A stretch of DNA of 64,000 nucleotides from Owenia fusiformis (Eukaryota > Annelida > Polychaeta > Sabellida > Oweniidae): positions 23,297,564 through 23,361,563 of the forward strand of contig CAIIXF020000007.1 in assembly GCA_903813345.2 (NCBI GenBank), given 5' to 3'. Positions within the stretch are counted from its first letter, which is position 1. Each line of letters starts with the position of its first letter. The notes beneath the pieces are model-generated. The model saw nothing but the letters and a program-made list of their open reading frames with translations, did no database searches and was not told the origin of the DNA. Positions 13,594 to 43,600 of this stretch are shown here, in pieces. A program made the position numbers and the translations under genes.

Positions 13594-16500
13594 TCACTGT
13601 GGTATTTTCGTTGTATACATAGTTATCACCCCAATAATAATCAAGACGATGTAGTGTTGTGTTATTTGCTCCCCACCATTATCTGGACCTTGAGATGTAC
13701 CCGTTAGTATTCCACCATTGCATTGGCTACTGTCACAACATAGGCTGCATGTCTAAAATTAGCAAATATGTACAATAAACAATATGAGCTTATACAGGGC
13801 GTTCAATAAGTATTGCTAATTTTGCTATAACTTTTGTTCTGTTTGCTTTTTCTTCATGAAACTTTCACAACATAAGATACATATATCTGACTTTATTCTA
13901 TGAAATAAAGACAATCGAATCAGTATTATTAAAGTTATGGTTACTAAGGTAACCAGTATCATGGATATGCGGGGCAAACTTCTGACGTCACTTTGGACGA
14001 CATTTTGAGCGTTGAAAGCACTAACATTTAATGCCGTTTAACATTTGGGATATGCAGTGCAGTTAAAAATAATCCATTCCAGAGTCACTTCATGATCCAT
14101 ATTAACTTCATGAGGTGCTCAAAACAGGCAAGCACCCCTAACTTCAATGCACAGTTGCTGTCTGGCGACCCACTCGTGGTACACAATTTTAAAGCCACCC
14201 TTAAAGTGTGTGGCTAGGGAGGTGTTCACTGCAGACATCAGCTGATTGAGATTCTTGTGCGATATTCCTCTCAAATCCCTTTTCACTGAGGCGAATACAA
14301 CAAAATAAAGTGTGGCCTTATCTAAAACATATGCTGCGTGAGGATGCTTCCATGCCAAGCTCTGTTATAATTGTATTTAAGAGAGTAGAGGATCTGTGAG
14401 CAGGGGCGTTATCTTGGTGGACCGTATATGTCGATGTTGCTCTTTGAGGACGTTGAAGTGTGTGGCTAGGAATGTGCAGTGTTCACTGCAGACATACGCT
14501 GATTGAGATTCTAGTGCGATATTCCTCACAGATCTCTTTTCACAAATAAATATTTTTTACATATAATTTAAACTGACAACATCACGATTTGACCATATCA
14601 ACAGTTTTTATTTATCAAAGTGTTTATTTGATGTATAACAATAATTCATTATGTAAACCCTTGAGTTTGCCCCGCGTATCCGTGACATTGGTTACCCTAG
14701 TAACCATAACTTTGTTAATTATAAGTCGGTTGTCCAGAAATTTGGATAGAACAAGGTCAGATGTGTGTTGCTTATGTTGTAAAAGTTTCATGGAAAATAT
14801 GCAAGATAACAAAAGTTATAACAAAATTAGCAATACTTATTGAACGCCCTGTAATACCGTATACTATATGATATAATACAATTAATATATTTTCGTCTTA
14901 CAGCCATAGTGTATTTTCACTAATACCCAGTTGGCTTTTCGACTAATGTTATTTTGACGCATTTTACATATTTCCACAGTTTTATTGATTTTGATGATGT
15001 TACATTTATTGATAATATTTTACTTCTTAGTAAAATGTTATTTGTTCTATTCTTTTTGCAGTAATGTTTAAAAAGTCACATACGTTTAACCTCATATTTA
15101 TTTTCTTAAATTTTTCAAAAATAGGCTGTATGTAGAGGCTGTACTTAAACACTTCTATTTATAGCATACTCATTACTTATTTAAAAAATTCAAGAGTTCT
15201 GAGACACTCTGTATTTAGAGGAGCAAGACCAGTTGCAAGCAAAAGAAACCTCAAAATGTATAACACTTCAACAACCCACCAAATATATAGTTAAATATTC
15301 CCAAATCAAAGAGCGAGGAAATTGACAGTGAATGATACAACAAATCTTTTATTCACTTTTCGGTGCCCGTGTATCTTTCACAAACAAAATGTATCCCTAG
15401 CCCGACGCGTTTCCTCGAATACTTGTGAAATATACCTTTGGTATAATATAATATTATAATGTCAATTTAATATAATATAATGTCAATACAATACAATACA
15501 ATACAATACAATACAATACAATACAATACAATATAATATAACATAACATAACATAACATAACATAACATAATATTATATAATATAATATAATATAATATA
15601 ATATAATAGTAATATAATATAATATAATGTATTTGTAATATATTTCGATGTTTAAGCAGTTAAATAAAAGTCTGATACCGTATGTGTTGTCGAGTGTCGT
15701 TCACATGTTTCATACATGCTAAATCTGTCGCACTTTTTCTGCTCACAACCTCTGGCGTGTGAAATGGCTGAACTGTCTGAATATTGATGTGTCTGAAAAG
15801 TGTTTACTAACCTGTACTTGTATGTAGATTTTACTATGCGGTTACTATGGTGTTTTACCAGAAGTTAACATTATTAGTAATAAAATTAGTCATCTCTGAT
15901 GCAGGGGATTATTTTACGTTTGAATTGTACATTTGATCAGTACGGGATATCTCAGCTTTAGATATCTTAATGATCTTTAAACAATATTAATACACAAAGG
16001 TCACCAATTTTGTCAATTTTTACATTCTATGAGTGTTGAAATATTACCCAGCAGGCATATCCATTATTAAAATCACATTCTTCATAAGCATCAGCTCTTG
16101 TCTGATTATCGTTACAAGTCGATGTATTCGAACAACTGAAACACGTTGCTGAAACATGAATAAGTGCATAATGTTTATATTTGCAATACTAAATGAAAAA
16201 TGTAGTTTTACCAAAATAATTCGTTCACGCACCATGTCATTGTGTAATTCTTCATTGAAGTCTAGACTTTTCTAAATCCAGATTTGTCACTTAATGATAG
16301 AAGTACTTAAGGCGTCACGAATCAATGGTATGGTTATGAATATATATAAATGTATATAGCTATATTACAATACTCACTCAGGCAAGCAGTTGCATTTAGT
16401 TTTGAAGTAAATCCATAAGAACACGAGGTGCATTTTTCAATGGGGTCTACACAAGTGGTGCAATTCGAAAGATCACCACACGCTGCAATACACAGACTTG

Positions 16501-19500
16501 TACTCTAAATGTCCTTATATTATTTAAATACATGGTACTTACTCGAATCGGAACGTCATTAAATTCAATATAAATGAAAGTCTGCTGGTTCTACCATGTT
16601 ACGTTAAAAATTCAAACAATTAAGCAATTTAAACAAATTTTAGCATTCGCACCTTTACATGAACTGCCATCGAATGCTTCTGTAAAACCACTGTCACATT
16701 CGAGGCATTCTGGGAAGTTATCATTATCATTGTCGTTACATGACAAACAATTTGAAATCTTGTTGCATCCTAAAAGCAATAAAAATATATTTATTGTATA
16801 TTGAAATTTGTTTTTATAGATTTCGAATAAACTGTATAATTCGACATTAAAGACAAATTATTACTCACTAACGCATGATGTTTTATCTCCACGAAGACCA
16901 TACCCTGCCTGGCAAGATGTACATTCGGCGATTCCATCATTGTCGCTATCTTCACAGGAAGCACAGTGTGTCAAAAACTGGCATGCTAGAGACAAAGACA
17001 AACACGATGGTACAATAAATAACAACTCAAATCAACTAGGTAACGGTGCGTTTAGGGTGTCACCATCCTAAAATGTAATGTGTTATGTACTACATATATT
17101 TTATTTTAAGTTTATATAGGTACATACTTGAGAGTCAATTATATGACTGTACTCACTAAAACAGCCAAATCCATCTTGTGATAACCCAAAACCATGGTTA
17201 CAAGCGGTACATGTGTCGGCGATTGCATCACCTGTTGACTCTATACATTCCAAGCATTCGGGGTGTACAGAAGAACAACCTTAGGAAATAAAGTAAGAGT
17301 ATGTTAGTCTTCTCAATTTTTATCAAAGAATTAGATATTTTCAAAATGGTACTGTGATTAATGATTGTGATTATTCCTGATTATTCCTGGTGGTAGTGGG
17401 GGTGTTAGACATTGTGATATATGTGTAAATTTGATCATGGTTTCGCATATTGGATGTTTGTTTTGTTGAATGCTTTTATCTTTTGTTGTCGGGTCGTGTT
17501 TGCTCTATTTTGTAATACTTTTGGCCTTTTCTCTTTTGTATTTTATATATTAAATAGTTGAGTAATTTACATTTTCATATTATATTTTAGAAACGTCGAT
17601 ATACATAGTATGGCATTATTGTATAAAATAATGTTGATATGTACTTATACATGAAGAACCATCTGCCTTTGGAGTATTTGCCTCTTCGCATCGCATGCAA
17701 TGGTCCGCAATTTCATCATTATTCTTATCCTCGCAGTGCGTACAATTACCTATCGTGGAACAATCTGAAAATTAAGAAAATATTTTGGTTACTTTACTCA
17801 TACAGACAGTGTTACTTAGAAATAGTTTCCTCATTTCTGAAAACGACCGTCTCACCTACACACATGGTCCTATCCTGACTAAGTCCCATTGTTGAATTGC
17901 AGACTAAACACTCGGCGATACCATCGTTATTGCTATCTTCGCATACTGTGCAATTTTCTGGACACTCTAAAAAGAATTGGTATTGGGAAAAGTATAATTT
18001 AATGGAATACGAATATCACACTACTATACCCCCATACTGTATCCTGTATTCCTTTAACCCTTTGCCTCCCACATTGTTTTTAGCAAGGTATTTCCCATAA
18101 CCGCATTGTTTTAGCAATTTCAGAGAAAAGGGTAAAAAAATTGATAGAAAAACTAAATATTGAATATCTCAATAAGTTTTCGTCTAATTAATGTGAAATT
18201 TTCAGGAAAACATTATTAGGTGTTACTTAACTGATTCACATGTACTGGCGTTACGTGGCATAGGTTTTGCTATTATGACATCATCACAATGGTTTGGAAC
18301 AGAATATAAACAGAATAATAGATGTCTGAGTTCTGATTATCTACTTCTACATTATAATTTCATGGTAAAATAAAAGCACGAATTGAAACTTTACGGGTTT
18401 GTTTTGACTACACAGATATTTATTATTTTTTATACAGAATAAAAGTAATGCAAACATCATGATAGCGAAATAGTATTGCTACACTAACAGAGTGATGCAA
18501 CTACTTACCGCTTACTGAATTTTAGAGCAAAAAGTCTGAAATTCTAAAATATTGAATATCTTAAAAAGTTGTAGTCAGTGTAAAATGTACAGGAAATCAT
18601 AACTTTGTGTTACTTGTTTTAATGTGGTGCCTCGCCAGGGTTTAACTTGACAGGTTATAATATTACATAACAATAAGTGAAAATAGCACTGGAACTATAT
18701 GAATTTTGCCCAAGACAAGAAAGTGTGCACTAGAATGCACTAATAAGAATATTGTACAGGCTACAGGGAAGTTGCAAATGGAGGACGTTTGTTTATTTCC
18801 ATAGTTCTGAATGTATACTAGATTTTACACATATTCTAAGTGTTCTACTATACATTGTATAGATTCATCGAGCAGTTTGCAACGTATTATTACCAGAAAA
18901 GCCCAATGAACAAAGATAGAGAATACCCGCTCCATTTGCAACTTAACCGTACCCTGTATCATTTTTAAATGTGGTCACGTGGTAGGGTAGTGTGTATATG
19001 CGCATTATATTTCTTCATAATACAAGTATGTATAGATGATTTAAAATGCTAAACCAGATGCTTATACCTGTACAGGTGAGACCATCTTGACTAACACCAT
19101 AGTAAGGCAAACATTCTTGACACATTGATTGTCCAAGTGGGTTACCGAGACACGTTGAGCAATTTCCAGGACACTCTGAAATAAGAGATAAGTTCAATTC
19201 ATTCTAGTCAATATTCAGAAACTCCAGACCTAGGTTGACGTATCCATGCTTGAATAACAATATTTGTTTCAAATAAAACGTTTAACCATTACCTATACAG
19301 CCACTCGTATCGAACAGAATACCGAAGCCATCTTTACACTTTATGCAAACGTCTGTTGTGTTATCGTTCGTTGTTTCCTCACATTCTGTACAGTTCGTAT
19401 CCAGGCTTGCACATGCTACAACAACAGGAGAAAGTTATGAAGTGTCTGAGTAACACGGAGGCAAAATAGATAGGATAGACTAATATCGAATATCATTTTG

Positions 19501-22500
19501 ACTAACATGCGAAAGTACCAACAGAATCACACCGTTGCACTAGAGAAACTAGATTTTGGAACGAGCTTGCGAACAAAATTTCAAATCAAAATAATGCAAT
19601 TAATACGCCCAATGTAGGAAGGATTTTACCAACACATTCTCGTCCGTCAAGTCGAGGTGTCTTCCCTGGACCGCACTGATAGCAAATATCAGCAATGTTG
19701 TCGTTCGTTGTTTCCTCACACACGTTGCAATCTGCTATTGTGTAACACTCTACAAAACGATAATACTAATTGCTCAGTTATAGTTAGTTCTAAAAAACTT
19801 CGAATGTGTCCCGGTGTGAATGAAATGATGGTCCCCCAGGGATTATGGTCACCTTTCTTAACGGCCCTTACTGGCCCTGATTGCGTATAATATAATGAGA
19901 ACAGGATCTTAAGAGGTTCTGGACAAATCATTTGATTCTGGACTTGTCATATTTTTTTTTCAACGAAATCACATCCAAGGGTTGAATTTTTATTAGCTAT
20001 TTAGAGAGTGAGTCCTGCCTAGTATTAATTTCAATAAAAAAAGTTAAAATAGAACCCTATTTGAGAGTCAATCTAATACTTACATTACATTGATAAATTA
20101 AGGCAAATCCTGAAATATTTTTAAAGTGCATTTTTTTATGAAATATTATCCAGCAAGTATTTAAATGAAACGGTCTTATTCAAATACAAATCATAACATG
20201 ATATTTTTCATGAAACATTTTTCAATGAAATTCAATTGAAGGGTCAAGATAAAACGAGCTAATTTAGGTGAAAACCCTTACATGATGATGTGTTTTCATA
20301 ACTTCTTTCATAAAATTCCATCAAGGGGTGAAGATAAAATGATCGAATTTAAGTGATTTAAGGATCACGAGAATATGTTTTCTTTGATATTTTCTATGAA
20401 ATCCCATCCAATGGTCAAGGTAAAATTTTGATTTTGATTTGGTCACGTGTTCGAAAGATCCATATAAGGCCCATAGAACCATATAGGAACGTCATTTTGA
20501 ATGTCACGTGATAGATCCATATAAGGCTTTTAGAACCATTTATGGAAAGATGAGGGAAGCCCCTGACCCCTGTTTCACGATTTTTATGCACTTCATTATT
20601 GTACCGAAGTTTGCCGATTCGATTCGTCGTATTTCGGAATCCTGGTGACAATTTTATACTCCATTGGAGTATTTTTGACCTACTTCTTATGACGGAAATT
20701 CCCGAACCTTGTTCGGATTAATCCGGATTTTCTGACCTACTTTATCTACCGAGATTTCACGAGTTAACATTCGTCTCATTCCGGAATCCTGGTGACAATT
20801 TTATACTCCATTGGAGTATTTTTGATCTACTTTTTCTGGATTTTGCCCTACTTATTATATCTTGACAACAAGCAAATCAAAAAGTTCGACATGAACGGGT
20901 CTCGATCAACTAACCTAGACTATGGAAGCCAGGCACGCTAACCATTAGGCCAACGAGCTACCGATATGAAAGAACAAAAGTATTATACATTTATACCGAG
21001 CGTCAATTCAAAATGATCCTCACTTTTGTCTCAACTTAAATACGACTCGTCAGTTGTATCCAGAATAGTAGAACGCCTATGGCGCTAGTGAATGACCAAG
21101 TCCCAGGTGAGTGGTTCGTATCCCTCCGTGATATACTATTTTTGTTTTATTAAATACGACAGAAAGGAGCAAGGTGTAGGTTGAAAACAAGACGTTAGTT
21201 TGTTTCAAAACAGTTTGGAAACATTAATCTCTGATAATTTAAGGTTTTCCACTCCTGAAGGGCCTCTAGATCTATGAAATTCAATAATCCACTCAGTAAA
21301 AATACGATTTCTCTGCAACCTGATGTCCAATCAAGATCATTCAAATATATATGTGTTCCTGACACGTTTGGGCGTCCGGGAATAAAATTGCTTGTGAAAA
21401 CTATTTACAAAAGTGTTCCAGAGACCCTTATCTACTTGGCTAAGGTTTTATTTGAAGATACATTGCCTTATTAGCAGGTAGAGGGGCATACAGAACACAG
21501 AAGCAAATGCTATGTTGAAAATTTTCTATATTTCAATTTGAACCTGTGTTTACATGTCACGTAGGCCAGTGTTTTATATGGGGATTATATGTACTTTCCT
21601 TGTTTACATGAACGTAAATCATTACATGAAATCTGCATTCTTCTGGGTTTCATCTGGGTTTGTATTGTCTTATTGGGGCTTTTCGACTTTAAAACAAACC
21701 CTACCTAAATGGATTGTTACTCGGGAACGTTTTTGTAAATAGTTATTATAAACAATTCTGAAAGAATATCACATATTTTTGTCTTCCCGATTTCAGTCAT
21801 GAATTACGTCAATTTCTCGTGCAAACATTGGGTAGACGTTGTCATAACCGGATGCCCGAACGTGTCAGGAACATATAGATACTCGAATGATGTTGATTGA
21901 ACATCAGGGTTGAGAGAAATCGTAATTTTACTGAGTGGCTTCACGAAAAAAAGCAGCACTTTAGGCCACCTAAATACAACTCGTCAGTTGTATCCAGTTG
22001 GAATCCCAGCGTAATGTTTTTAATTATATGGTTGTGCTTTGATTTTTCGCTGAAAACATTTATAACTACGTCAACTTTATATTAAAACATTTATTATCTT
22101 TTCAGTTGTATTAAAATGTAAAATATGATATATGTCAGCTTATTGCTTTCTGGAGAACAGTCAAGGTTTAAATTTGGTACAATGAATCGGACACTCATGT
22201 AAATCGACATGGTTATAACATTGAACTCAATGCAGTAAATTAGTTATTTCTATGAATCACAGCGGGATTGGTTTCATTTTATATGATTGCCAACTCTGGC
22301 GGTTTTTTTGTAAATGCTTTTGACCGCTGTAAATGTGAAACTGATACAGTATTATTCAATTGTTTTATGTCTTGGTCACATTTGCTCCGATTTTCACTAC
22401 GGCGCCCGGCCGATTGAGTATTGTGTTCAGAAATGTATTCAATTTTGAACAAAATACTCGCAGCAAATGTGATCCAGGCATTACACAGCGGTATTTCAAA

Positions 22501-25500
22501 CATACTATTGTTGCTTAACCACGACCTAGCCAATTTTAAAATCATACTCCTTAATTATTTAAATCCCAGTAAACGATCAATGTCTAGGTATTTGGCGTTT
22601 GATGATACTATGGCCCTTGGCGAATTATGATTAGATGAACCGAGGTCAACATTAATGTTTCTTGTACAAGGTCATCCCAAGGTCTAAGATAAATATTTAG
22701 GTATTTTACGTTTCAAGACCTTTGGACAAATTCGATTCAACGATGTATTAAAGTTAAAATGTATACAGAGATAAAATAGGTTATCTCCTATCGTTTCCTT
22801 GTGTATACGTTTATGTCTCTGCGTAATAACGCAGATGCGAGCAGGTAGTTACCAATCTCACCACAAGGTGGCTCGTTCGGGTCAGATAGCATGGCGGGTA
22901 TGGTAGAAAGTTCCCTTTAAATTTAAGTACATCTGTTTTCGTGGTTCAATTTTCATATCACCCTTAAAATGTATCTAATAGCAATGCAATTAAAATATGT
23001 CCAGTGAACGAAAATGCAATACAAGAATAGATATTTCACTTTTTGTGATTTTGTAACAATGGGGTTATTTTTTGTATATGTAACATGGTCATTTTCACAT
23101 TTTATATTATTACTGTTCATATTAATCAATCCCTATTCATCTCAATATAACAGGTCCCTAAGTAGGTTGTTTGCAGTTTTACTCTTTTAATACCATGTTC
23201 ACTTTTCACCTTGAGTTATTCAACTATGCAAACTGTGTCAGTTTTATATATCTATTGTTCCCCTATATGGTCTTTCTCACTCACATGTAGCTGAGTTTGC
23301 ATTGGGTGTTGGCTTGTCAGTAGTTGCTGTAAGAGTTCATGTTGTACATTACAGAGCATTGTATTTTAAACATTGAAGTTTGAAATATACTATTTTATAT
23401 ATATTTTAATTTGAAGTTCGAGTTATTTTATTGCCACCCACGGGCCTTCCACACGCCCATTAACATATAACGCTTTGAAACAACTTTAAAAAGTGAGCAA
23501 TGTCAGTGTTGTGATAATAGAGAATTTTCGTTATAAGTTGTTTCAAAAACTTATACGTATACTTATAGTTTAAAGGGTCTTGTCGAACTAAAATCAATTC
23601 AAATTGATTTTCATAATCTGTTCCAAGTGGGGCATAACTATTCCCGATATAGTCAAGCTTCATCATCAACTAGGGACTGCGAATACAATGTCCTTTGCTA
23701 GTGTCAATTATGAACACGATAAACTAAATTCTAGTTGACGGGTCCTTGTAGTGTACGATAAACAAGACCCTTTAAAGTGAATCACTACACGAACGAGTCG
23801 ATCATTTCAAAGTTCTCATGAAATTATAAGGTCAATTTTTAAGTTTTTACGTATAAAAGGGCCTTTATACGCAGATTATAAACTTACAGAGTTGGATCTC
23901 CGCATAGTATATGTGTGGACCTACTGACCAGAATGGCTTATTAAAATTAATCGGCTGAATAGGCATAGTATCCAATCAAATAGCTCGACTCATTCATTAG
24001 CTGAACTAATTCTCCCTTCGTTATTTATACAAGGTGATTCAAAACGATCATCTACAAAAATATATTTGAGAGTAGATAAATCTGTAAAACCCGTGTGCTA
24101 TATCAGCCTATTTGATTCTAGAAAACACATATGACACAACTAAACATGCTTTACATCAAGGGGGTACGGATGGTATGCCATTGGCCCTTTTTATTACCGT
24201 CCTAGGAGATATTTCCCGACGAATTAGGAAATTATGAAACACCTTGTTTATTGGGTTTATAAGTATAAGTATACGTATAAGTTTTTAAAAAACTTATAAC
24301 GAAAATTCTCTAATAACGCCCCTCATACCTATTTATTACAGGTCGTGTAGACCATTGTTGCCTGATTTATAGCAAAAACATTGACTTTTGCACGTTGATG
24401 ATGATGATGATGATGATGCGCCTTTTATAATAGATCTCATATCTTAGAAGCGTATCAGTTCAAAAAATACTAGAAGACCTTACATATTTTGTCATGCACT
24501 GCGCCTATTCATTTGGCAATTCAGTTGTAAATTTTATCTTGAAAAAAATAAATCTTCCAAATTTGTTGAGTTTTCTTGCAGAAATCGCCTACCCCCCCCC
24601 CCCCCCCCCTCCATCCATTTTGTATGATCACAAGGCGTGATTTAAGCTGCTGATATTCTTCTTTAAACGAGTCGGATTTTCAAAATCTATAAGTTGGACT
24701 CCCTTTATAGTAGTTCAACAAGTTAAACCCAATACCACGGCTTTCATTTATTAATCTGAATGTTCTTGTTGCCGTGGTTGGGTTTAACTTCCGTGCTATG
24801 CTTTCATTTGTTGCAAATTCTCACTATCAGTTATTAATTAAACGCGCATGGAATTCCATGCGGTACCATAGGCCACCATTAAATTTTTTGCATCAAGGGC
24901 CGAATAGGCACGGACGTTAAACCTAGGGCGGGCCACAAGATATGTCAGATAAGAAATAAGGCCCAGACTAGGTTTAACTTGTTGAACTACCTTTATAGAA
25001 GCTTTGAACTGAATTTGCACTGCTTAATGCTGAAATTTTATTGTTTATCCATACATTTTAAGAAAAAATGTATAAAAAAAGATGTTAAAGCCAAATGTTG
25101 CCCTAAAAATTCAGAAAATGTAAAAAATTTCGAATTTTCTATGTACAGGCCTTGTTGCCCCTTTAAGAAGCTTAATATGTAAATTATCCAATCAAACACT
25201 TCGTCCACCATTTTGAAACACTAATCAATCCAATCTGTGCTAGCGATTCATAGGGCGAGCCAGTGGGATATTTCCAGGGTTCATACACACCTGGAAATGT
25301 CAGGGAAATTGACTTGATTTTCCAAGTGCTGGAAATGTCAGGTAATTTTAAAATTAGGTCAAAAGGGCCAAAGATGACCGGGAATTTTGAAACGGTAGAC
25401 ATGTCAGGGAAATGTCAGGGAAATTTGTATCAGTGTTGAAAAAATAATGTTCCAGAGATTAATGTTTCCAAACTGTTTTGAAACAAACTAACGTCTTGTT

Positions 25501-28500
25501 TTCAACCTACACCTTGCTCCTTTCTGTCGTATTTAATAAAACAAAAATAGTATATCACGGAGGGATACGAACCACTCACCTGGGACTTGGTTATTCACTA
25601 GCGCCATAGGCGTTCTACTATTCTGGATACAACTGACGAGTCGTATTTAAGTGGAGACAAAAGTGAGGATCATTTTGAATTGACGCTCGGTATAAATATA
25701 TAATACTTTTGTTCTTTCATATCAGTAGCTCGTTGGCCTCATGGTTAGCGTGCCTGGCTTCCATAGTCTAGGTTAGTTGATCGAGACCCGTTCATGTCGA
25801 ACTTTTTGATTTGCTTGATGTCAAGATATAATAAGTAGGGCAAAATCCAGAAAAAGTAGATCAAAAATACTCCAATGGAGTATAAAATTGTCACCAGGAT
25901 TCCGGAATGAGACGAATGTTAACTCGTGAAATCTCGGTAGATAAAGTAGGTCAGAAAATCCGGATTAATCCGAACAAGGTTCGGGAATTTTCGTCATAAG
26001 AAGTAGGTCAAAAATACTCCAATGGAGTATAAAATTGTCACCAGGATTCCGAAATACGACGAATCGAATCGGCAAACTTCGGTACAATAATGAAGTGCAT
26101 AAAAATCGTGAAACAGGTGTCAGGGGCTTCCCTCATCTTTCCATAAATGGTTCTAAAAGCCTTATATGGATCTATCACGTGACATTCAAAATGACGTTCC
26201 TATATGGTTCTATGGGCCTTATATGGATCTTTCGAACACGTGACCAAATCAAAATCAAAATCAAAATTTTACCTTGACCATTGGATGGGATTTCATAGAA
26301 AATATCAAAGAAAACATATTCTCGTGATCCTTAAATCACTTAAATTCGATCATTTTATCTTCACCCCTTGATGGAATTTTATGAAAGAAGTTATGAAAAC
26401 ACATCATCATGTAAGGGTTTTCACCTAAATTAGCTCGTTTTATCTTGACCCTTCAATTGAATTTCATTGAAAAATGTTTCATGAAAAATATCATGTTATG
26501 ATTTGTATTTAAATAAGACCGTTTCATTTAAATACTTGCTGGATAATATTTCATTAAAAAACGCACTTTAAAAATATTTCAGGATTTGCCTTAATTTATC
26601 AATGTAATGTAAGTATTAGATTGACTCTCAAATAGGGTTCTATTTTAACTTTTTTTATTGAAATAAATACTAGGCAGGACTCACTCTCTAAATAGCTAAT
26701 AAAAATTCAACCCTTGGATGTGATTTCGTTGAAAAAAAAATATGACAAGTCCAGAATCAAATGATTTGTCCAGAACCTCTTAAGATCCTGTTTGAGGGAA
26801 AGAGTTGTATTTAAGTCACCATATATATAAATCAATGGAGAGTAGGGCCATACTAGTAATTTGATAGGACCTCCTACCCTTTTACACCGGGTATGCCCAA
26901 ACTGACAAAAAGAACTAAAGATAACCAGTGCAGTCCAAACTATTATCAGTGGTATATTGGTTATACTGAATTACAAGCACTGCTTCTATGGTATGCATTG
27001 ATACGATAGTTAATATTTACCGACACATGTCCTGTTGTTAAGCCTTGGGGTCCTTCCAGCAATACAACCCAAGCAAGTATCAGCCACTCCGAATCCCCCA
27101 CTGTCTGTACATTCAATACAGTTTGAGATCACCGTACAATCTTAGATCAAAAACATTAATTTAATAAAATATGTTCTCTATATCAGTGTAAAGAGCAAAA
27201 GAGGGGAAATGAAATTGAATTTTTGGACGACACAGAAACATCCATAACGCTCGTAAACTTAACACAAAAGATAACACAATAGAACAAACGAGTTAAGAGG
27301 TCTGATAAACATACTTTGTAAACGTACATGTAATAAAAGTTGCGCTTACGGTATCCTTTTTACATTTATAAAAATATAACAATATACACATTTTTACATG
27401 AATAGAAGACAACGCGTAGAAGATAAATCATTAGAGATTGCTCACAATGATTAACAAATAAATCATCTATTATTAACTAAAACCGTTTTTTCTTTCTCGT
27501 GACAAATCTCAAACGAGATTAAGTTTATTTACGTAAGATGAACATTAATTTCAATTCCTACTTACCAACACAGGTGAGTCTATCATTACTTGGACCAAAT
27601 CCAATGATGCATTCAGTACATTCTCCAACCCCGTCATCATTTCCATCCTCACATCGTGTACAGTTTGTTGGACACACTGCAACAAAAGGCCGCATTAAAA
27701 TCACATATAAACTCCTTATTTCGAGCTTTGCATTCGTAATACTATTTAGATGGTTTTGGGGGTTTGTGAATGTTGTACACAAAAACTATATAATGCGCTT
27801 CGAACCCTCTATCATGTTTTGAGGCCTCTACAGATATCGAGTATTTGTAGTAAATAGGCAATTTATAAAGCCAACGTTTTAAAAGATGTATAACACTCAT
27901 ACATTTAGTGTCGATATACCTCAAATATTTACGTATCTGAGCGCATTTACCAGCTAAACTATATTGAGAATACATGGAATAGAAGATACTATTTCTGATC
28001 ACGCACCTACACATCCTGAAGAATCACTTGTTAGTCCATAGCCGCTTTCACATGCAATACATTCAGACAAACCGTCACTGTCGCCATCCACACAAGACAT
28101 GCAGTTCATGGGACAAGCTGTGGTGAACATGAAACATGGGGAATCGTGTGCTTCTCATAAACTTCCATTGGTTAAACTTGTAAATTAATGCTTCTTGATA
28201 ATATTTTACTACATTGATGCTAGTCTGGTCATTTCGATAGATTTAGTTTTGTTGTCCAAGCCAAGAAGTTTATACATTTGGTAATAATGTATTTTCATAC
28301 TATCAGTATTGTTTTAGAATACATCTAAATGGATAAATGAGATCACACAAAAATGCCTACCGACACAGCCTTCGCCATTACCCTTGGGCCCATAACCAGG
28401 AAGACACGCTTTACATTGAAAGTCTTCCTTGGTACAGTTGTCGCAGTTAGAGATGGAAGTACAAGCTAGAAATGTTACAACATGAATAATAATCAACGAA

Positions 28501-28750
28501 GTGACAAAAAACCATCTGATGCAGCAATATACTTAATTTAGGTAAACTTCTACATTATACTTTGAGTTCTATCCCATTGAAGTGTCTTATACTGGACAAG
28601 GTACGTCCATATACTTTGAAAAAGATGTTTAAAAGGTAAACTAAACAGTAATAAGACTTTACCCGTATATTGAAGAGATGCCACATTGTTAATCGGGTAT
28701 GTACAGAGGACGAGAAGAGTTTCAAGAGATAAAAGATGAATCCACTTCAT
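13594..28750 (-). CDS. 13 furin-like Cys modules + Ly6/uPAR domain, GPI-type surface protein
   Basis: Seventeen exons, all in frame, predict 650 residues. CDS exons: 28750-28663 (signal peptide), 28465-28361, 28117-28007, 27676-27566, 27140-27021, 19749-19630, 19415-19293, 19175-19068, 17966-17856, 17764-17645, 17279-17157, 16985-16869, 16769-16653, 16482-16378, then LU exons 16148-16048, 15792-15679 and 13752-13594. Exons 2-14 each encode one 35-41-residue module, roughly C-x2-7-C-x2-C-x(6-15)-C-x2-C-...-C, like furin/growth-factor-receptor repeats. They are bounded by phase 1 introns; the two introns inside the LU domain are phase 0. The tail is hydrophobic. The start ATG follows an acceptor at 28760, so a 5' UTR intron is likely. 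Inferred: a modular GPI-anchored cell-surface protein. I do not know a named family with this order of domains. Exon chaining is firm; the ligand and role are unknown. Confidence 0.85.
13793..14853. mobile_element. 1.06-kb mariner-type relic
   Basis: Ends are tacagggcgttcaataagta and its inverse, extending about 45 bp inward, with TA at the outer bases. The minus-strand frame at 14119-14358 contains EWVARQQLCIEVRG, reminiscent of the C-terminal end of mariner-family transposases, but it is short and broken. An internal block of about 85 bp (14208-14290) is repeated at 14456-14545. It is inserted in the last intron of the FU-LU gene. Confidence 0.75.
15437..15635. repeat. Pentanucleotide microsatellite tract
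   Basis: Consecutive runs of ataca-, ataac- and ataat-type pentamers (for example aatacaatacaatac) cover nearly 200 bp within the intron between the last two LU exons. Confidence 0.9.
16378..19749 (-). other. Furin-like modules 5-13 (nine exons)
   Basis: Modules 5 and 6 (19749-19630, 19415-19293) share CEETTNDN, which suggests a recent exon duplication. Modules 8 (CEDSNNDGIAEC) and 11 (CEDSDNDGIAEC) carry acidic loops. Module 12 has CNDNDNDNFPEC. Module 13 (16482-16378) is the shortest and lacks the acidic loop. Donors of modules 9, 10, 11 and 13 end in A|GT rather than G|GT, but the phase is kept. Confidence 0.85.
17967..19067 (-). other. Intron between furin-like modules 6-7 and 8 region, no exon seen
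   Basis: About 1.1 kb between exons 19175-19068 and 17966-17856. Donor and acceptor phases match directly, and I see no further Cys-rich module or element ends. Confidence 0.5.
19900..21233 (+). repeat. Left terminal inverted repeat of the 6.9-kb element
   Basis: It pairs base for base, with few differences, with 25452-26791 on the other strand. It carries both tRNA-like segments described for the right arm, in opposite orientation. Confidence 0.85.
22826..22916 (-). repeat. Dispersed 90-100-bp repeat, copy 2
   Basis: Reverse complement of the repeat at 8781-8880, with gatgcgagcaggtagttacc and ggtggctcgttcgggtcaga. It lies inside the 6.9-kb element. Confidence 0.65.
23520..24310. mobile_element. 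0.79-kb MITE with ~50-bp TIRs and 5-bp TSD
   Basis: The ends are gagaattttcgttataagtt and its inverse, extending inward through cttatacgtatacttata. Both flanks carry taata (23515-23519 and 24311-24315). There is no coding capacity. It is nested in the 6.9-kb element. Confidence 0.75.
24399..24418. repeat. (GAT)n microsatellite
   Basis: Six to seven consecutive gat units. A long C-run of about 19 bases lies nearby at about 24592-24610. Confidence 0.85.
24711..24989. mobile_element. 279-bp MITE with perfect 9-bp TSD
   Basis: Ends tagttcaacaagttaaacc and its inverse are flanked on both sides by cctttatag (24702-24710 and 24990-24998). A second internal ggtttaact pair occurs near 24780. A 9-bp duplication is typical of Mutator-like and some other superfamilies; the class is not certain. 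Confidence 0.75.
25556..25630 (-). promoter_or_regulatory. Second tRNA-like segment, facing the first
   Basis: On the minus strand, gcgctagtgaataaccaagt is followed by gtggttcgtatccctc, a good B-box match. A copy is at about 21060-21125 on the plus strand in the left arm. It may be a tRNA relic or SINE fragment. Confidence 0.35.
25727..25802 (+). promoter_or_regulatory. tRNA-like segment with A-box and B-box matches
   Basis: tagctcgttggcctcatgg resembles a tRNA D-arm and pol III A box. gatcgagacc, about 55 bp later, resembles a B box. The mirrored copy is at about 20885-20962 on the minus strand in the left arm. It looks like a tRNA-derived (SINE-type) promoter carried by the repeat rather than a functional tRNA gene, because I could not fold a full acceptor stem. 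Confidence 0.4.
27021..28465 (-). other. Furin-like modules 1-4 (four exons)
   Basis: Exons 28465-28361, 28117-28007, 27676-27566 and 27140-27021. Characteristic pieces are CKACLPGYGPKG, CMSCVDGDSDGLSEC, CTRCEDGNDDGVGEC and CIECTDSGGFGVADTC. Modules 2 and 3 hold an acidic DxDxDG-like loop between the third and fourth Cys. Introns are short (about 240-450 bp) except for the next one, which carries the 6.9-kb transposon. Confidence 0.85.
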
Positions 28751-29812: not shown

Positions 29813-30691
29813 TACACTCCCCTCCATAAGTTTGGCAACCTTTTTTCCCCCATTGAACTACGTGTTAAAGCCTCTTTACCCTTGAATTTTTATTTACTTA
29901 ACCTGCGATGAAAATACTTATACTATTGATGGAAACGTAATTTGACTTTAATTCCAATACCTCAAAATTTTCTCAATTTTTTTCCTCAATTACAATAGGT
30001 CGAGAATTGATGATAAATTTGATAAATTTTTGAAAATCGTCATTCCCATGTTAACCAATGGGAAATGATAGGTTTGCCGCAAGTCATATGACAGAATATC
30101 CATCCATCCGAGTCCTTGCATAAAATACAAGTTAGGCAGGCAATTGAATTTGCTAACTTTATTTAACAAAAAATTGATATGTTTCTTCAGGTTAAACAAA
30201 GTTATAGGGCTTTAAAGTCAAAATTGTTTTTCAAAAAACCTCTCCCATTGAAATAACACAGGAGGCGAAAAATTATTTTCAAAAATGACTTTGAAGCGCT
30301 GTAACTTTAATATTCATCAAATAAACTAAACACTTAGTGTTCAAAAAAGTTAGACAATTCAATTTTCTATATGAAAATATTTTTGCTGAATCTTTTACTG
30401 AAAAGATATCCTGATTTCTGATTTGCCCCGAACCCTCCATTTCCCATTGGATTACATGGGAATGACGATTTTCAAAAATTCATCAAATTTATCATCAATT
30501 TCCGACCTATTGTAATTGAGGAAAAAAATTGAGAAAATTTGGAGGTATTGGAAATAAAGTCAAGTTACGTTTTCATCAATATTATTAGTTATTTCATCGC
30601 CGGTTAAGTAAATAAAAATCCAAACGTAAAGAGGCTTTAACACATAGTTCAATTGGGAAAAAAGGTTGCCAAATTTATGGAGGGGAGTGTA
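29813..30691. mobile_element. Complete 0.88-kb Tc1-type MITE
   Basis: Starts tacactcccctccataagtt and ends in the inverse, with a few mismatches, near aggggagtgta. Inverted arms extend about 260 bp inward, and TA is at both outer ends. No transposase. The same terminus marks the broken Tc1 transposon ending at 36742, which is probably of the family that mobilised it. Confidence 0.85.
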
Positions 30692-30699
30692 ATGTAATG

Positions 30700-31010
30700 T
30701 AGTGTGCAATACAGGATATATTCTGCTCGAGAAATTCCGTATTGGAACGAGACGAAGTCGAGTGCCAATACAGAATATCGAGACAGAATATATCCTGTAT
30801 TGCACTTTAAATCATTCAATAACGTTTTTATTGTGTGATCCTCTGTATTGCTACTGAGATCGTTCCCTCCGTACCGATATTTTCTGTATTGCGACGGAGA
30901 TGATCAATGGGAATAATCTCAGTAGCAATACAGATTGGTACAGCACAAGAACTGACCAATCAGAAGGCTTCATTTTACAGAGCATACGATAATGTGTTAT
31001 ATTGTATAAT
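30700..31010. repeat. Inverted-repeat cluster around gcaatacag motif
   Basis: gcaatacaggatatattctg (30706) is inverted at about 30780-30800. ctgtattgctactgagat (30844) is inverted at about 30918-30938. It is likely a small foldback element in the intron after the last recognised VWC exon. Confidence 0.55.
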
Positions 31011-31044
31011 ATAGCAACGACATGCTTGACAAAGATAAACGTAC

Positions 31045-33952
31045 CCAATTGACATTGATTTGTGTCACATTTCATTCCATCTGTATTGCACGAGCAGACA
31101 CCACATGGCCCAGTGTTATCCATTTGCCACTGTGAACCCAACGGATAAGTCCTACCAAGGTACTTACATTGCGGAGTACAGTTGATGTTACTGCACACTG
31201 GTCCATTTAGGGTACACAGACAGCTATTACAACCATCCTCAGCCAAGAAACGGTCCCCATACTTGTAACCTTGGGCGTTATAGCTACAGTCTCCCTTTTG
31301 AGAGGGATCTTTTGGTGTCGGCCGAGCTGAAGGAATCGGGTCAATTATTGGTTCATCTGTAGGATCAGGTGGACCTGGAATAACAACGTGTACAGTGGAG
31401 CTTGTGTTAAGGGGTCTTGCGGCATTCTGATTTCATCTATTATCTATTTGAAAATCTAGCATCATATTATTAATTTTACCCCATGGATAGCACGGTCCAT
31501 CTTTCACATTGCCGTTATAGCAGCAACGACATTCACCGTCATCCAGCTTTCTGCATTCTCCTTCCTTCAACCATTCGTTAGTACATTGTGGACTTGATGT
31601 AGGGCCTCTTGGTGTCGTCCAGCTAGGTTCAGTGTTGGCACATTTTGACTTTGAGCAAACAAGCTTGGCATTCTCGAGACACTGGCATGTTTTACATCCT
31701 TCAAGTATATCGAATTTCGTACCGATCTTGTAGAATTTACCATCATATTTACAAACCTTTGGAAACGATAGTTTGCATTCTATACCTGTTTTCTTGCAAT
31801 AGCACACTTTATTCTTATTGTCCGTTTCGATAATATCTCCGACTTTGAATTTTCTGTCACCAAGTTTGCAAACTTGCTTTTCACAATCGTCCTTTTCGGA
31901 ACATTGAATACCCTCCTCCGTGCATTTGCATGAATAACAACCATCTCTCCCCTTGAACACGTCACCAATCGCATACTTTTTGTCCTCATGCACGCACGCT
32001 CCACAGTCAACGATATCTTCACATTTCACTCCCTCCGTCGTACATTCACACTCGGCGCAAACATCTTTGAAGGTGTCCCCTACTTTGTAATCCTTGTCGC
32101 CAATTGTGCACCCTTTGCAATATTTCTTTGTGCAGTAAAGTCCTTCTTCAGTACATTTGCAAGTGTTGCAATTATCGCCCATGGGGAAAACGTCGCCAAT
32201 TTTATATTTCTCGTCTTCATATATACAGTATTGTGGCGATGCCTCTGTTGTCTTCTTACATATAACCCTTTCGATACACCTTACCCCTTCCTGTGTACAT
32301 GTACATTCACGACACTCACCCATGTTGAAAGAAACTCCAAGTTCGAATTTGCGGTCCCCGACTTCGCAATACCTTCGTACCTGGGTTGTTGTTTCACAAA
32401 ACCTTTTCGTACAGATTACTCCTACTCTTTGGTTATCTACATATCTGCAGATACACTCGTTGCAACCATCTTCAGCAGGGAAGCTGTCTCCAACTTCGTA
32501 AACGTTGTCGTTATACATACATACGGGAGGTCGTCGTGTGGTCTTCATACAATCAATTTCTGTACAACTTACAGATGGTCGATTGTGCTCATTTGCTTCG
32601 CATATACACTTATTGCAACCATCTTCGGCGGGGAATCTTTCTCCAACTTTATAAACTTGGTCATTGTACCTACATAAAGGAATTTCATGCGTTCGGCGCG
32701 TGGTCTTCATACAAGCCATTTCTGTGCAATGAACAGACGGACCATGGTGCTCATTCCCCTCACATGTACATTCATTGCAACCATCTTCGGCGGGGAATCT
32801 ATCGCCAACTTCGAAGTTTCGGTAGTTATATCTACAGAATTTTGGCTTATTGGTCGTTGAAATTGCGCATCGGTTTTTTCCACAAGTCACAGTTGGTTGA
32901 TTTTCATCACTCATCAGACACTGGCATTTGATACACCCCTCTTCAATTTCGAACTCTTGACCTAGTCGATATAGTCTACTTCGGAATGCACATTGTCTGG
33001 GAGCACAATTGTTATCTGTGCATGCAACACGGACTTGTCCCCTGGCTTCTACGCATTCACATTGACCACAACCATCTTCTGGAGGAAACGTCTGCCCGGG
33101 TTGGTATTCACGCCCGTTATACTCACATACGGGTAGAAGGCGCGGCTCTAAATGTAGAGGTTTAGACATTAAAACATAAAATGCTATACTAAAATGGTAT
33201 TTTCATTCAACAGTTTTTATATAGTATTTGTGGGTGTAATACGTATACATACATTGGGCTTTATGTAAAATCAAAATGTATATATAACCCTCTGGGTGTT
33301 TAGCAATGGGTTTCCATATGTTTTCTGAAAACTAAATACTTTTTCTAAAATGAGAACTCTCTAAAACTCTTCTTGATGATAATTTAGAATGTAAAGATTA
33401 GAAGGAGAATGAAAGAAATGTAAAGAAAATAAAAAATACATTGTAACATTTTGATAGTACAGCTATGCTCATTTTATTTCATGTAAACGTTTCCAAGAAA
33501 GTATTTGTAAATTGCATTACCGGTCGGATGTGGAGGATCGATGCACGGTTCTTCGTTGCAGTCGCTCCCGTGTGTTGTACATATGCATATGCTACAACCG
33601 TCCTCTCCAATGAAGTCATCTCCGACGTGGTACCCCTTTCCTCCAGAGTAACAGCGCTCGGCAGCTGATGGCAGCGCTACAGCTACATACATATTGCACA
33701 TAGTTCAAATTACAATAATGAACGGTAATCTGGCAACATAACAATGGAAACAGTCAATGCCATCTATTTTGCAAAGTATAGATTATTCGAACAAGCACAA
33801 ATGTTTCAAATAACTTATCAGACTCACGAAAACAAATCGGTCTGTCTCCTTCTTTAATGATTCTGCATGTTTCTGATCAAACCGACAATAAGTGAAGAAG
33901 AAAATCATTTACCTGACAAAGCTAATAACCAGTAACGCAACCACCTATTCAT
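31045..33952 (-). CDS. Secreted VWC/pacifastin-like multi-repeat protein (last exon uncertain)
   Basis: Four exons, all phase 1: 33952-33913 (MNRWLRYWLLALS leader), 33682-33521, 33147-31480 and 31374-31045, giving about 733 residues to the last donor (G|GTACGT). About 14 six-Cys repeats follow the pattern C-x(8)-Y-x-(V/I)-G-x2-F-x3-(D/E)-G-C-x2-C-x-C-...-C-x4-C, for example VYKVGERFPAEDGCNKCIC. Eleven lie in exon 3 alone. Near the end of exon 3 is a different Cys cluster (GECRCCYNGNVKDGPC), then a Pro/Asp linker (PPDPTDEPIIDPIPSARP) and two more repeats. This resembles single-VWC or pacifastin modules; secreted VWC repeat proteins often bind growth factors, and pacifastins inhibit serine proteases, but neither role is shown. 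The final coding exon has not been fixed. Confidence 0.8.
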
Positions 33953-35207: not shown

Positions 35208-36742
35208 TCAACAATCTTTACGTAGCGTTGGAATTGTAATTAAAATGTAAAAGAGTCTCCTGATGTACTGCCCGGGGATTTGAACCCATGCTCTATGGAC
35301 GGCAATTTCCAGCTCGCGGAGGTTGTTAGTTTGGAGATTCTGTATCTGGCGATCAATATAATGCCACATATTTTCAATAAGTGATTGGTCTGCGGAATAT
35401 GGGGGCCATCTCATTTTGTTAACGTCGCTTTGAAAGAACCACTCTTCAACTTGATTCGCAGTATGAACGGGAGCGCTGCTCTCTGTCACCGAATATCTAT
35501 TCAATGGATGGTAGAAGGTTCTCCTGCAAAATATCTATATATACCCTCCCGTGATGACTCCAGGGACCGTGACTAGCTCCCTAACACGATGATACCCGAC
35601 GCACCCCCAAAACATGAGACCACCTCGTCTTACAGTTCGTCCCATGTCGAGGCACTCTGGGTTGTATTTCTCAGCATTTGTGCGCCACAATATTGTATCT
35701 CGTTTCATCAGAAAAACTACTTTACACCAATGAGTATTAACATTCCAAAGCCGGACATTTGCCCATTCCAATTGTCGTTGTCGTATGATGGGGGAAGTAA
35801 TAGGCTTTGTCTTGGCTATTCGACCTTACAGACCTCTGTTATGTAACTTGAAATATTAAAGACATTTTATAGAGCATATAAAACTTTAAAACAAAACCAG
35901 TATTGTCGGCAATAGTTAGCAATAATTGCGTAAAGTTGATGAATATTTTCGAGAAGTTCGTCAAAATTAAAGTATGAAAGATAAAAAGTGACAATATTGC
36001 ACCTTCTCCTGATAGTAGAGTAGCTTGCACGTATGTTAAAGTTCATCTGCCAGAAGGTTTTCAGTCTTGGGACTGTTGTCTTACGTTCAAGCCGGGTATG
36101 GTGGACAAGGGGGCGGTCCTATCTCAATGTAGAAATGTAACGCCTTCCAGAGCTGTGTCCCTCCCTGTTTGACCCTGTATTTCGAAATCGGTTGATGGTT
36201 TTTGATATTGTGCCCTTGCAGCGATTCAGTGTTAGACCAATATATCGCAACGTCCGACCCTCATTGCGGAGGGCAATAACGGTTGCCCGTTCATCACGAG
36301 TAAGCTGACGTGCAGACCCCATGAGAAATGAGCGAAATGTCAACGCATGTTTCATGTGTCATAGGTGTATCAAGACAGTGATCAAATCACTCATTCACTG
36401 TCATGCATCATTGAATCAATTGTTCAGAACTCATTTCACCAATAAGGATCAAAATAATATATCTCACCAAACCGGTATTCTATTTTAAAAAAGGGCACTC
36501 CAAATTTGTGACCAAATCATGTATCCTCGTCATAGCGAACGAAATAAACCATACAAATGCACTAATGCATTCAATAATTGTAGTTTATAAAGATTACTTT
36601 ATATATCACACATCCATCTTTTCTAAAATATCATGAAAAAATTATTTTTTGAAAAATACTGATTTGATTCTTCTACCATCCGGAAATTGTTTGATGAATT
36701 TACATGTATAAAAAGATTGCCAAACTTATAGAGGGGAGTGTA
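35208..36742 (-). pseudogene. Broken Tc1-family transposon
   Basis: Three minus-strand fragments in different frames match the order of a Tc1-type transposase. 36355-36119 is the N-terminal helix-turn-helix region (SARQLTRDERATVIALRNEG, then NTGSNREGHSSGRR). 35771-35535 is the central catalytic part (RTVRRGGLMFWGCVGYHRVR). 35504-35208 is the C-terminal part (APVHTANQVEEWF, MRWPPYSADQSLIENMWHYI). The family's D-N-A-P-H-T and S-P-D-L-N-P-I-E-N motifs are degraded here. The 5' terminus is present at 36742 (gaggggagtgta) but no opposite terminus is visible, so it is frameshifted and 3'-truncated. Confidence 0.85.
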
Positions 36743-40600: not shown

Positions 40601-43600
40601 GTTGCAAATCTTTGGAGGGAGTGTTGTTGTATTCCTCTATATTTATACGTTTGAGTTAAATTACCTCTTTGTGGGTTTGATGTTCGATGATCTCTTTGAT
40701 TTTGAGCATGAATTTCAGCAACAGAAACTGTCTCCGGGTATTGCTTAGGGGAATACTGATTGTATCGTGCTGTTAAATTAGAAATAAAAATATATTAACC
40801 ATTATAGTTAAATAATTTGCAGTCTAGTCTTGTAAAATGTCATCTTTAATTTTCACCGCAGATGATTTAGGTATGAATGATACTTCATAAATAATACGTT
40901 TTCTTTGGATGTAAGGGAAATTATGTAAGTGATTTAGAATAATGATCACGGCACATCCATTAATGATAGGCCTTTAACATGGTGTAAGTAACTTACGTGG
41001 ATTGAGGTTCAATGTCGTCGTTGTGTCACGCTGATACAAGTGTCTTCGTGGATCTCGTCTCATCTGATAGCTCGAAACGTCACCGATAGTAGACACGGGT
41101 GTATTAGCCGGTGATTGGGGGTATTTCTTTTTTCTTTTGAAAGAACGTCTTATTGATTTCATTATTGAGCCAGGCGTAATGCTAGGTTCAAACTTTGCAT
41201 TAGGGGTTCGATTGACAGCTTTATGTGTTGTATAAGCAGTTATATTCCCCGATGTCATTTCATTGTGATTTGAAGGTACTGTAGCTTGATGGGAGAGACA
41301 CGCTGGAATCATAAATAGACTAACATGTTGTTTTAAGACATCGAACCAGAAGTTTCGGAAAACAGAAAGAGAATAGCGATTTAATTTATAAGTATGTCGC
41401 CAAATATGTCCAGCTCAATTATTAACCTATTTTAGTTACAAATAAATCATTTAGATAAAGTTTCGAATTGCTTTTACGACTATTAAACATGCTCATGACG
41501 ATATCTACATGGTTGTAGCACCTCCCTACCTGAACCAATATATCTAATCGCGACTCTGACATCCAATGACGTTGTACTGATCATTGGAAATAAAGGTAAT
41601 CGTCCTCCACCGAGGCCCTTGAAGGCAACACCGTAACTCGACTGATAACTTCCAAATGACAACGTCCCTTTCTCCATATCGAGGGATACAATAAGTTGAT
41701 CGGGGATGTTTGGTTCCTGTCCTTGGAGGTCAGGGTATTTTTTGATGGTTCTATTGTTATGTATAAGATTTAAGTTTTTTATGTTCCAGCCCCAGGACTG
41801 AATATTGAATCCAACCAAATCCAATAATCCTCGATTGTACAATGGGGCTTGGTAGGTACCAACTCCGATGCTGGAGTGATTATCTCGACAATCTCGTGGC
41901 CATGTGATTTCCCAAACATGGCGTCCGCGGAGGAATCCGAGGTTTGAACGAGCGGCATGAGTTCCTGTAAACTGGTGAGTGATGAGGACTATAGTGTTGG
42001 CATCTTCTATTGTGAAACCTTCAGATGAACCTTGTCTTGACCAACAAAACTCTTCGTCGGTGAATGCCTTTGTTATGGCCAGTTCTACAGTTCCGTGATC
42101 GTCATCTGAAAAACGTAATACCCTATTTTTAAACTAACCTTGTTTATTTTAGTATAGCCATTACGAGATTTGATTGTGGTGTGATTACTTGATAACATAA
42201 TTCTTATCCACTACATGCATTAATTAATTTGAATATACGATTTTATCCTCAAATATGGATCTGTCCATAGATAGTAAAGGCATTCAAGATTAAAAACAAA
42301 CACGCCATCTTTAAAACTGTCACGTGGTACTAACCATGATGATCAAATGGGCAGTACAAAAATTATAAAACAATATCAATTTAACTTTCATTTTCTAATT
42401 GTAATTATGGTGCTAGTCTATCTATATTAGTTTCATGTTTCAATTAAACCCGACATTACAATTTGACTTTCAAATGAATGCCCGTCGGTAATACTGTTAT
42501 CAGCAATTATGTTTGGTGGAAATAATCATATAACATTGGTTATCATTGTTTGTATGTCATATTACACCAGAAATACAACATATATGCAAACGCATATTTT
42601 ATATAGATAGCTCATTCTTTCCTTCTCACAGCGTATGCAAGGCTTTACAATAGACCCAAATGCATCAATAAGTGTAACATATTATCATAAAGATAATATT
42701 GTTAAAGAGACAAAACAAACCAGTCGAATGTTTAAAAGTTTGAACATTGCCTTGACAAATGAATGCGAGTGTTTAGACTTTTAATTATTTTGTAGAAGGG
42801 TGGGCCTTTTAAAGGCCCCATTTAAAGTTTGGAAATATGTTATCTTTAATTTACTATTTTCAGGCCTTAAAACGTTATTTTAGAAATTTGAAACAATATA
42901 TTTTGAAAAAGAAGTTGTCAGCTTTATATTTCTTAATAAATATTCAAATTTCCCGCCATTTTCAAATATATTTTTAATCATAAAATATTCCACTGTTCAG
43001 CGCAAAATAATATTTTAACACAAATGAAAAGATTGAACAAATATATCAATCAATCAATAATAAAATGTCTAATGTCATATCAATTATATTATTAAAATAT
43101 TTTGCCACCAACGTGACATCATCGTGACATCACTCAGGTGGACACCTTTTTTGTCAATCTTTTCTAAATGTTCTAAACTTCACAAATAAAACAATGTTGA
43201 TTGTCTAACCAACCAGGTTGAAAGGAAGAATGATTTGTTTTGAATATCATTGTGCCATTGGTTTCTACTAAGATTTTGACATGAATTTTTCTTTGAACCA
43301 TTTCATTTCTCGCTTATTTATGAACCTATTTTCTTGATTTTTACGGCAAAAATCACGTGAGGATGATTGCTATGCATCGGTGTGATGCATTTCCTTCCTT
43401 ATCAATAACTTATTCAAAATAGACCAAGATGTTACCCTGAGCGCAGAGTCTAGTTATAAATACGAAGCTCTCTTTTAAGAAGCAAAGTCGACGAATACAA
43501 AGGCAACCAAGATGCATGTACTGCTATAAATCCTTGTGCTTAATAAGACAACATTTTATTTTAGATAACATAAATTCAGATATTAGTACTTTTAGTACTA

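Follow-up and report, generated by a model that had tools for sequence, protein, structure and literature searches.

How does a long run of furin-like, cysteine-rich modules come to share a reading frame with a region that resembles a Ly6/uPAR (LU) domain? This question is raised by a predicted minus-strand gene of the annelid Owenia fusiformis, which runs from position 28750 down to 13594 of the 64,000-nucleotide stretch of DNA analysed here (the window; GenBank assembly GCA_903813345.2, contig CAIIXF020000007.1, positions 23,297,564 to 23,361,563). Both types of domain are already known, and what appears to be new is their combination, since the matches listed from titles and abstract beginnings in the open-licence literature include no description of a protein with furin-like modules and a LU domain. 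The gene probably encodes an exon-shuffled surface protein, likely linked to the membrane by glycosylphosphatidylinositol (GPI), in which 13 furin-like modules would form a rod with a single LU-type domain at its membrane end.

The gene model, predicted from genomic DNA alone, comprises 17 exons that join into a single frame of 1953 nt (650 residues) with no internal stop, all of them bordered by AG acceptors and GT donors. Phase is 1 after exon 1, 1-1 for all 13 module exons, and 1 on entry into the LU region, followed by two phase-0 introns inside it. The predicted product starts with a signal-peptide-like sequence and continues with the 13 modules, a cysteine-rich region ending in CC-x4-CN, a linker, and a hydrophobic tail. 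G+C content lies between 0.38 and 0.49 in the 17 exons and between 0.19 and 0.36 in the 16 introns, so that every exon exceeds every intron. The first-pass annotation had proposed 17 exons in consistent phase, and this is borne out by the single frame and its AG/GT borders; the domain order that it gave (signal peptide, 13 modules, LU-type end, hydrophobic tail) also holds up. The exons are as follows:

28663..28750, minus strand: exon 1, ATG and signal-peptide-like sequence (by hydropathy), ending in phase 1; an acceptor-like AG lies just 5' of the ATG (candidate 28759)
28361..28465, minus strand: exon 2, module 1, with a short C3-C4 loop of 6 residues
28007..28117, minus strand: exon 3, module 2, strict calcium-loop-like motif
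27566..27676, minus strand: exon 4, module 3, strict calcium-loop-like motif
27021..27140, minus strand: exon 5, module 4
19630..19749, minus strand: exon 6, module 5
19293..19415, minus strand: exon 7, module 6
19068..19175, minus strand: exon 8, module 7, with a C3-C4 loop of 9 residues lacking Asp and Glu
17856..17966, minus strand: exon 9, module 8, strict calcium-loop-like motif (modelled with AlphaFold2)
17645..17764, minus strand: exon 10, module 9
17157..17279, minus strand: exon 11, module 10
16869..16985, minus strand: exon 12, module 11, strict calcium-loop-like motif (second AlphaFold2 model)
16653..16769, minus strand: exon 13, module 12
16378..16482, minus strand: exon 14, module 13, with a short C3-C4 loop of 6 residues
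16048..16148, minus strand: exon 15, LU region from C1 to C5, entered in phase 1 and left in phase 0, one residue past C5
15679..15792, minus strand: exon 16, LU region with RGC (C6), C7 and one extra Cys, phase 0-0
13594..13752, minus strand: exon 17, one extra Cys, CC-x4-CN, linker, hydrophobic tail, and a stop codon overlapped by AATAAA

The product contains 13 N-glycosylation sequons, in seven cases located at a module's second Cys, which is compatible with a predicted extracellular protein.

The modules are held together by six Cys residues that are invariant in all 13 copies, with a constant C5-C6 spacing of x12. Each of the six Cys columns contains both TGT and TGC codons, as would be expected of old copies kept under constraint. 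Furin-like repeats follow the spacing C-x3-6-C-x2-C-xn-C-x2-C-x12-C, a rule to which every one of the modules conforms. In pairwise hhalign comparisons, the 13-module profile aligns with furin-like exons from two other genes of the same genome (E 2.1e-6 and 1.2e-5), and also with a second module of one of these genes (E 1.5e-4, 22 columns), whereas the EGF and VWC controls fail (E 0.13 and 0.072, respectively). The first two of these exons have the same borders as the modules of the array, being phase 1-1 and starting with AG|NN-TGT. The three comparison modules were themselves classed as furin-like by spacing, and Pfam gives a furin-like name to the third only, below the cut-off (Furin-like_2, E 0.052). 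As for the 13 single modules, Pfam returns no furin-like family among the 14 families matched (best E 0.015), which are mostly zinc-ribbon, DUF7630, and EGF-like, and the fold matches of the modelled modules 8 and 11 do not separate furin-like from EGF. Matches in PDB were rejected as identities, both those of the modules to PriA (E 0.23 and up), which are at chance level, and those of the module profile to a chromosome-segregation protein (E 0.029) and to cytochromes. Taken by their six-Cys spacing, the hhalign alignments, and the failed EGF and VWC controls, the modules look furin-like, as the first reading of the locus had suggested.

A further feature of the modules is their C3-C4 loop, which has 10–11 residues and is acid-rich in 10 of the 13 copies, the exceptions being modules 1, 7, and 13. 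Acidic residues occupy 44 of the 126 positions in the C3-C4 loops of the array, compared to 30 of 358 elsewhere in the modules. A strict motif, D-x-[DN]-x-[DN]-G-x-x-[DE], is found in four modules and a looser one in eight, counts that were never reached in 20000 reshufflings of the pooled loop residues (means of 0.02 for the strict and 0.01 for the loose motif), although part of this excess may be due to the common ancestry of the modules. The motif recalls the calcium loops of thrombospondin type 3 repeats and EF-hands, with which four modules share D-x-[DN]-x-D-G-[ILV]-x-E followed by C-x2-C. Unlike in those proteins, the motif is set here within a furin-like module, and TSP_3 is absent from the Pfam families matched by the 13 modules. 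The acid-rich C3-C4 loops carried by most modules are likely to bind calcium. Neither these loops nor the possible in-phase link to the upstream VWC gene (see below) figured in the first-pass annotation.

The C-terminal region is described here against the definition given in sections of a 2019 review of LU proteins (PMC6600238), namely ten Cys within 60–90 residues, with Asn following the last of them, flanks that are mainly in phase 1, and an intron located at the loop 2 tip. In this gene, Cys residues are found at positions 3, 6, 12, 25, 33, 50, 55, 77, 78, and 83 of the region, with Asn at 84, and two further ones at 64 and 74 bring the total to 12; the choice of this pair as the extra one was inferred from spacing. 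The framework shows C1-x2-C2, C5-x16-C6, CC-x4-CN, and a phase-1 entry, and the first internal intron, in loop 2, lies in phase 0 at C5+1. The same place and phase are found in four LU genes of the same genome (L019, L021, L023, and L039), where the C5-C6 gap is 16, 16, 17, and 16; a further gene, L020, of which one exon was read, differs in the place or phase of this intron, and the weak matches L022 and L041 were omitted from the comparison, having no LU-like frame by eye. L019 and L021 are similar genes of the ordinary single-LU type with a hydrophobic tail, and lie about 9 kb apart on contig C1. Behind the region, a linker containing Gly, Asn, and Ser precedes a hydrophobic stretch at about residues 632–644. 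The Cys framework and gene structure make it quite probable that this region is a LU domain.

Several observations weigh against this reconstruction. At the 5' end, exon 1 is a weak piece, as strict signal-peptide criteria select three loci in 128 kb (both strands), exon 1 included, while looser criteria select 32 in 128 kb, which amounts to about 0.6 expected in the 2.6 kb tested; the looser count slightly lowers confidence in the gene as modelled. Exon 16 is another weak piece, with the donor ACG|GTATCA. Among nine phase 0-0 candidates for this exon, a Cys at C5 + 16 residues occurs only in 15679..15792, and an alternative at 14199-14143, inside a transposon-like element, gives a C5-C6 gap of 17 but was rejected because it leaves no space for the third loop. 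Finally, profile searches do not recover the LU domain: neither the LU part nor the whole 650-residue product, for which the first-pass annotation had proposed this check, matches any Pfam family at E<=10, whereas two LU genes of this genome do match LU families. The hhalign probability of a LU match is 0.5%, and the score of the region with a hidden Markov model built from the four LU genes was reached or exceeded by 180 of 500 Cys-keeping shuffles and by 49 of 500 full shuffles.

The doubts about exon 1 bear on the start of the gene, which is less certain than the link between exons 14 and 15. Just upstream lies another array:

30854-33704, minus strand: VWC-array gene (Pfam VWC E 1.3e-28 at 31436-33169 and 2e-4 at 30854-31246; 33474-33704 by eye)

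The modules might belong to this gene, with its last visible exon, ending near 31046 in phase 1, spliced to module 1 and exon 1 skipped, resulting in a VWC-furin-like-LU protein. The VWC frame does contain a possible phase-1 donor near 31046 (CAATTGG|GTACGT) that matches the entry phase of module 1, the two genes are on the same strand and about 2.6 kb apart, and the presence of a signal-peptide-like exon would be unsurprising by the looser criteria. The resulting order would also be that of the FRAS1 N-terminus, where VWC domains are followed by furin-like repeats, as stated in part of one source (PMC10095167). However, the exon at 28750 is among only three loci selected by the strict criteria, and the unspliced VWC frame stops at 30851, with an AATAAA at 30832; the fusion is considered unlikely.

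At the other end of the gene, the failure of the profile and sequence tests to find a LU match, together with the two extra Cys and one extra phase-0 intron, could indicate a different 12-Cys domain that is LU-like at its ends only. A search of PDB sequences with the LU part likewise gave no match. Against this, the C5-C6 gap of 16, CC-x4-CN, the phase-1 entry, and the phase-0 intron at C5+1 all argue for a LU domain, and the alternative is considered quite improbable. Of the full LU domain claimed by the first-pass annotation, therefore, the Cys frame, the spacing, the terminal CN, and the intron position stand, while profile support from Pfam and the four-gene model is missing.

It is very unlikely that the furin-like protein ends before exon 15 and that the LU exons form a gene of their own. 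The LU exons by themselves do resemble an ordinary LU gene minus its signal-peptide exon, and ordinary LU genes are present in the genome, but exons 14 and 15 are just 229 nt apart, no AATAAA or ATTAAA is listed between them, which argues against a gene boundary at this point, and the exit of exon 14 and the entry of exon 15 are both in phase 1. A chance origin of the gene pattern is ruled out by shuffles and by the G+C contrast between exons and introns. Across six frames, the module pattern has 11 matches in the window, none of them outside this gene (modules 6 and 10 do not fit the pattern because their C1-C2 spacing is one residue longer), and no match in 20 first-order shuffles. A frame combining CC-x4-CN with a hydrophobic tail and a stop turns up a single time in the window and a single time among 100 window shuffles.

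Returning to the furin-like and LU protein as a single gene, relatives were sought in the 498-Mb genome (525 contigs) with searches that score the best candidates only, so that paralogs may be missed. Within this scope, no second gene of the same domain order was seen, module queries gave, at E<=0.1, no exons other than the 13 of the gene itself, and the LU part gave its own three exons and two weak matches (E 0.52 and 0.97), which were rejected as paralogs since their frames are not LU-like by eye. The module 11 query also retrieved one furin-like exon elsewhere in the genome (E 1.99). This exon, the sole module relative outside the gene that this query retrieved, comes from another mosaic gene (L032, 4100-5700), which by eye holds an EGF-like, two furin-like, and a lectin-like stretch. 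Searches of viral and prokaryote collections gave no relative. One copy was seen in its own genome, the one animal genome searched, which does not establish the new receptor or adhesion family suggested at first.

Compared to known systems, the gene shares with LU proteins the Cys framework, CC-x4-CN, the phase-1 entry intron, the internal intron between C5 and C6, and the hydrophobic C-terminus, whereas it differs in its 12 Cys, in the extra intron between the extra Cys, in the lack of detected profile similarity, and in its long non-LU N-terminal array. Furin and PCSK5, like R-spondins and FRAS1, are furin-like (Fu) repeat proteins; the array described here differs from these proteins in its acid-rich loops, which compare with loops of 7 residues in the same-genome C9 and C11 exons, and in that the predicted gene model has no protease or kinase part. 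FRAS1 shares the tandem furin-like array; VWC domains also occur here, in an array immediately upstream that is either a neighbouring gene or perhaps part of this one. However, the full FRAS1 architecture (VWC, Fu, CSPG, Calx-beta, and transmembrane) is not that of the 650-residue product, which has a LU-type end and in which Pfam finds no CSPG-like or Calx-beta family.

Other elements of the window were also recorded. The intron between modules 4 and 5 holds a large, recent-looking insertion (19900-26792) with inverted arms of about 1.3 kb each (19900-21233 and 25453-26792) that are 99% complementary. An element with inverted ends (51 nt, 94%) occupies 13793-14853, in the intron between exons 16 and 17, and an inverted repeat with arms of 259 nt (88%) lies at 29842-30663, between the VWC gene and exon 1. 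Further upstream are frames at 35208-36358 that resemble a broken Tc1/mariner-type transposase, and a SPRY-domain frame on the minus strand at 41486-41842 (E 5.1e-7).

The origin of the protein may be pictured as the tandem duplication of a phase 1-1 furin-like exon into an array, which would then have been joined in phase to a LU exon set, likewise entered in phase 1. The signal peptide would direct secretion, and a GPI anchor or a short membrane tail would hold the protein, so that the 13 modules would project from the membrane as a rod, with the LU part adjoining the anchor. Calcium bound by the acid-rich C3-C4 loops of most modules would stiffen the middle of the rod, which would keep a binding face away from the membrane, the likeliest role being cell-surface adhesion or the capture of ligands. 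A further reading is put forward only tentatively: the LU domain, described as no more than a "proto-module", would truly have been moved by shuffling to a furin-like rod that is non-homologous to it and loaded with calcium. The result would be a new class of surface receptor tethered by GPI, with a variant of the furin-like module that binds calcium.

According to the sections of the review considered here (PMC6600238), most LU domains stand by themselves or in the company of further LU domains, GPIHBP1, SP-10, and the TGF-beta receptors being among a few exceptions, and LU exons, despite phase-1 flanks, have hardly been mobile. If transcripts confirm the predicted gene, it would be a clean example of a LU exon set shuffled in phase into a foreign modular array, with an internal intron placed where other LU genes of the same genome have theirs. 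It would also provide a calcium-binding form of the furin-like module that can be put to the test.

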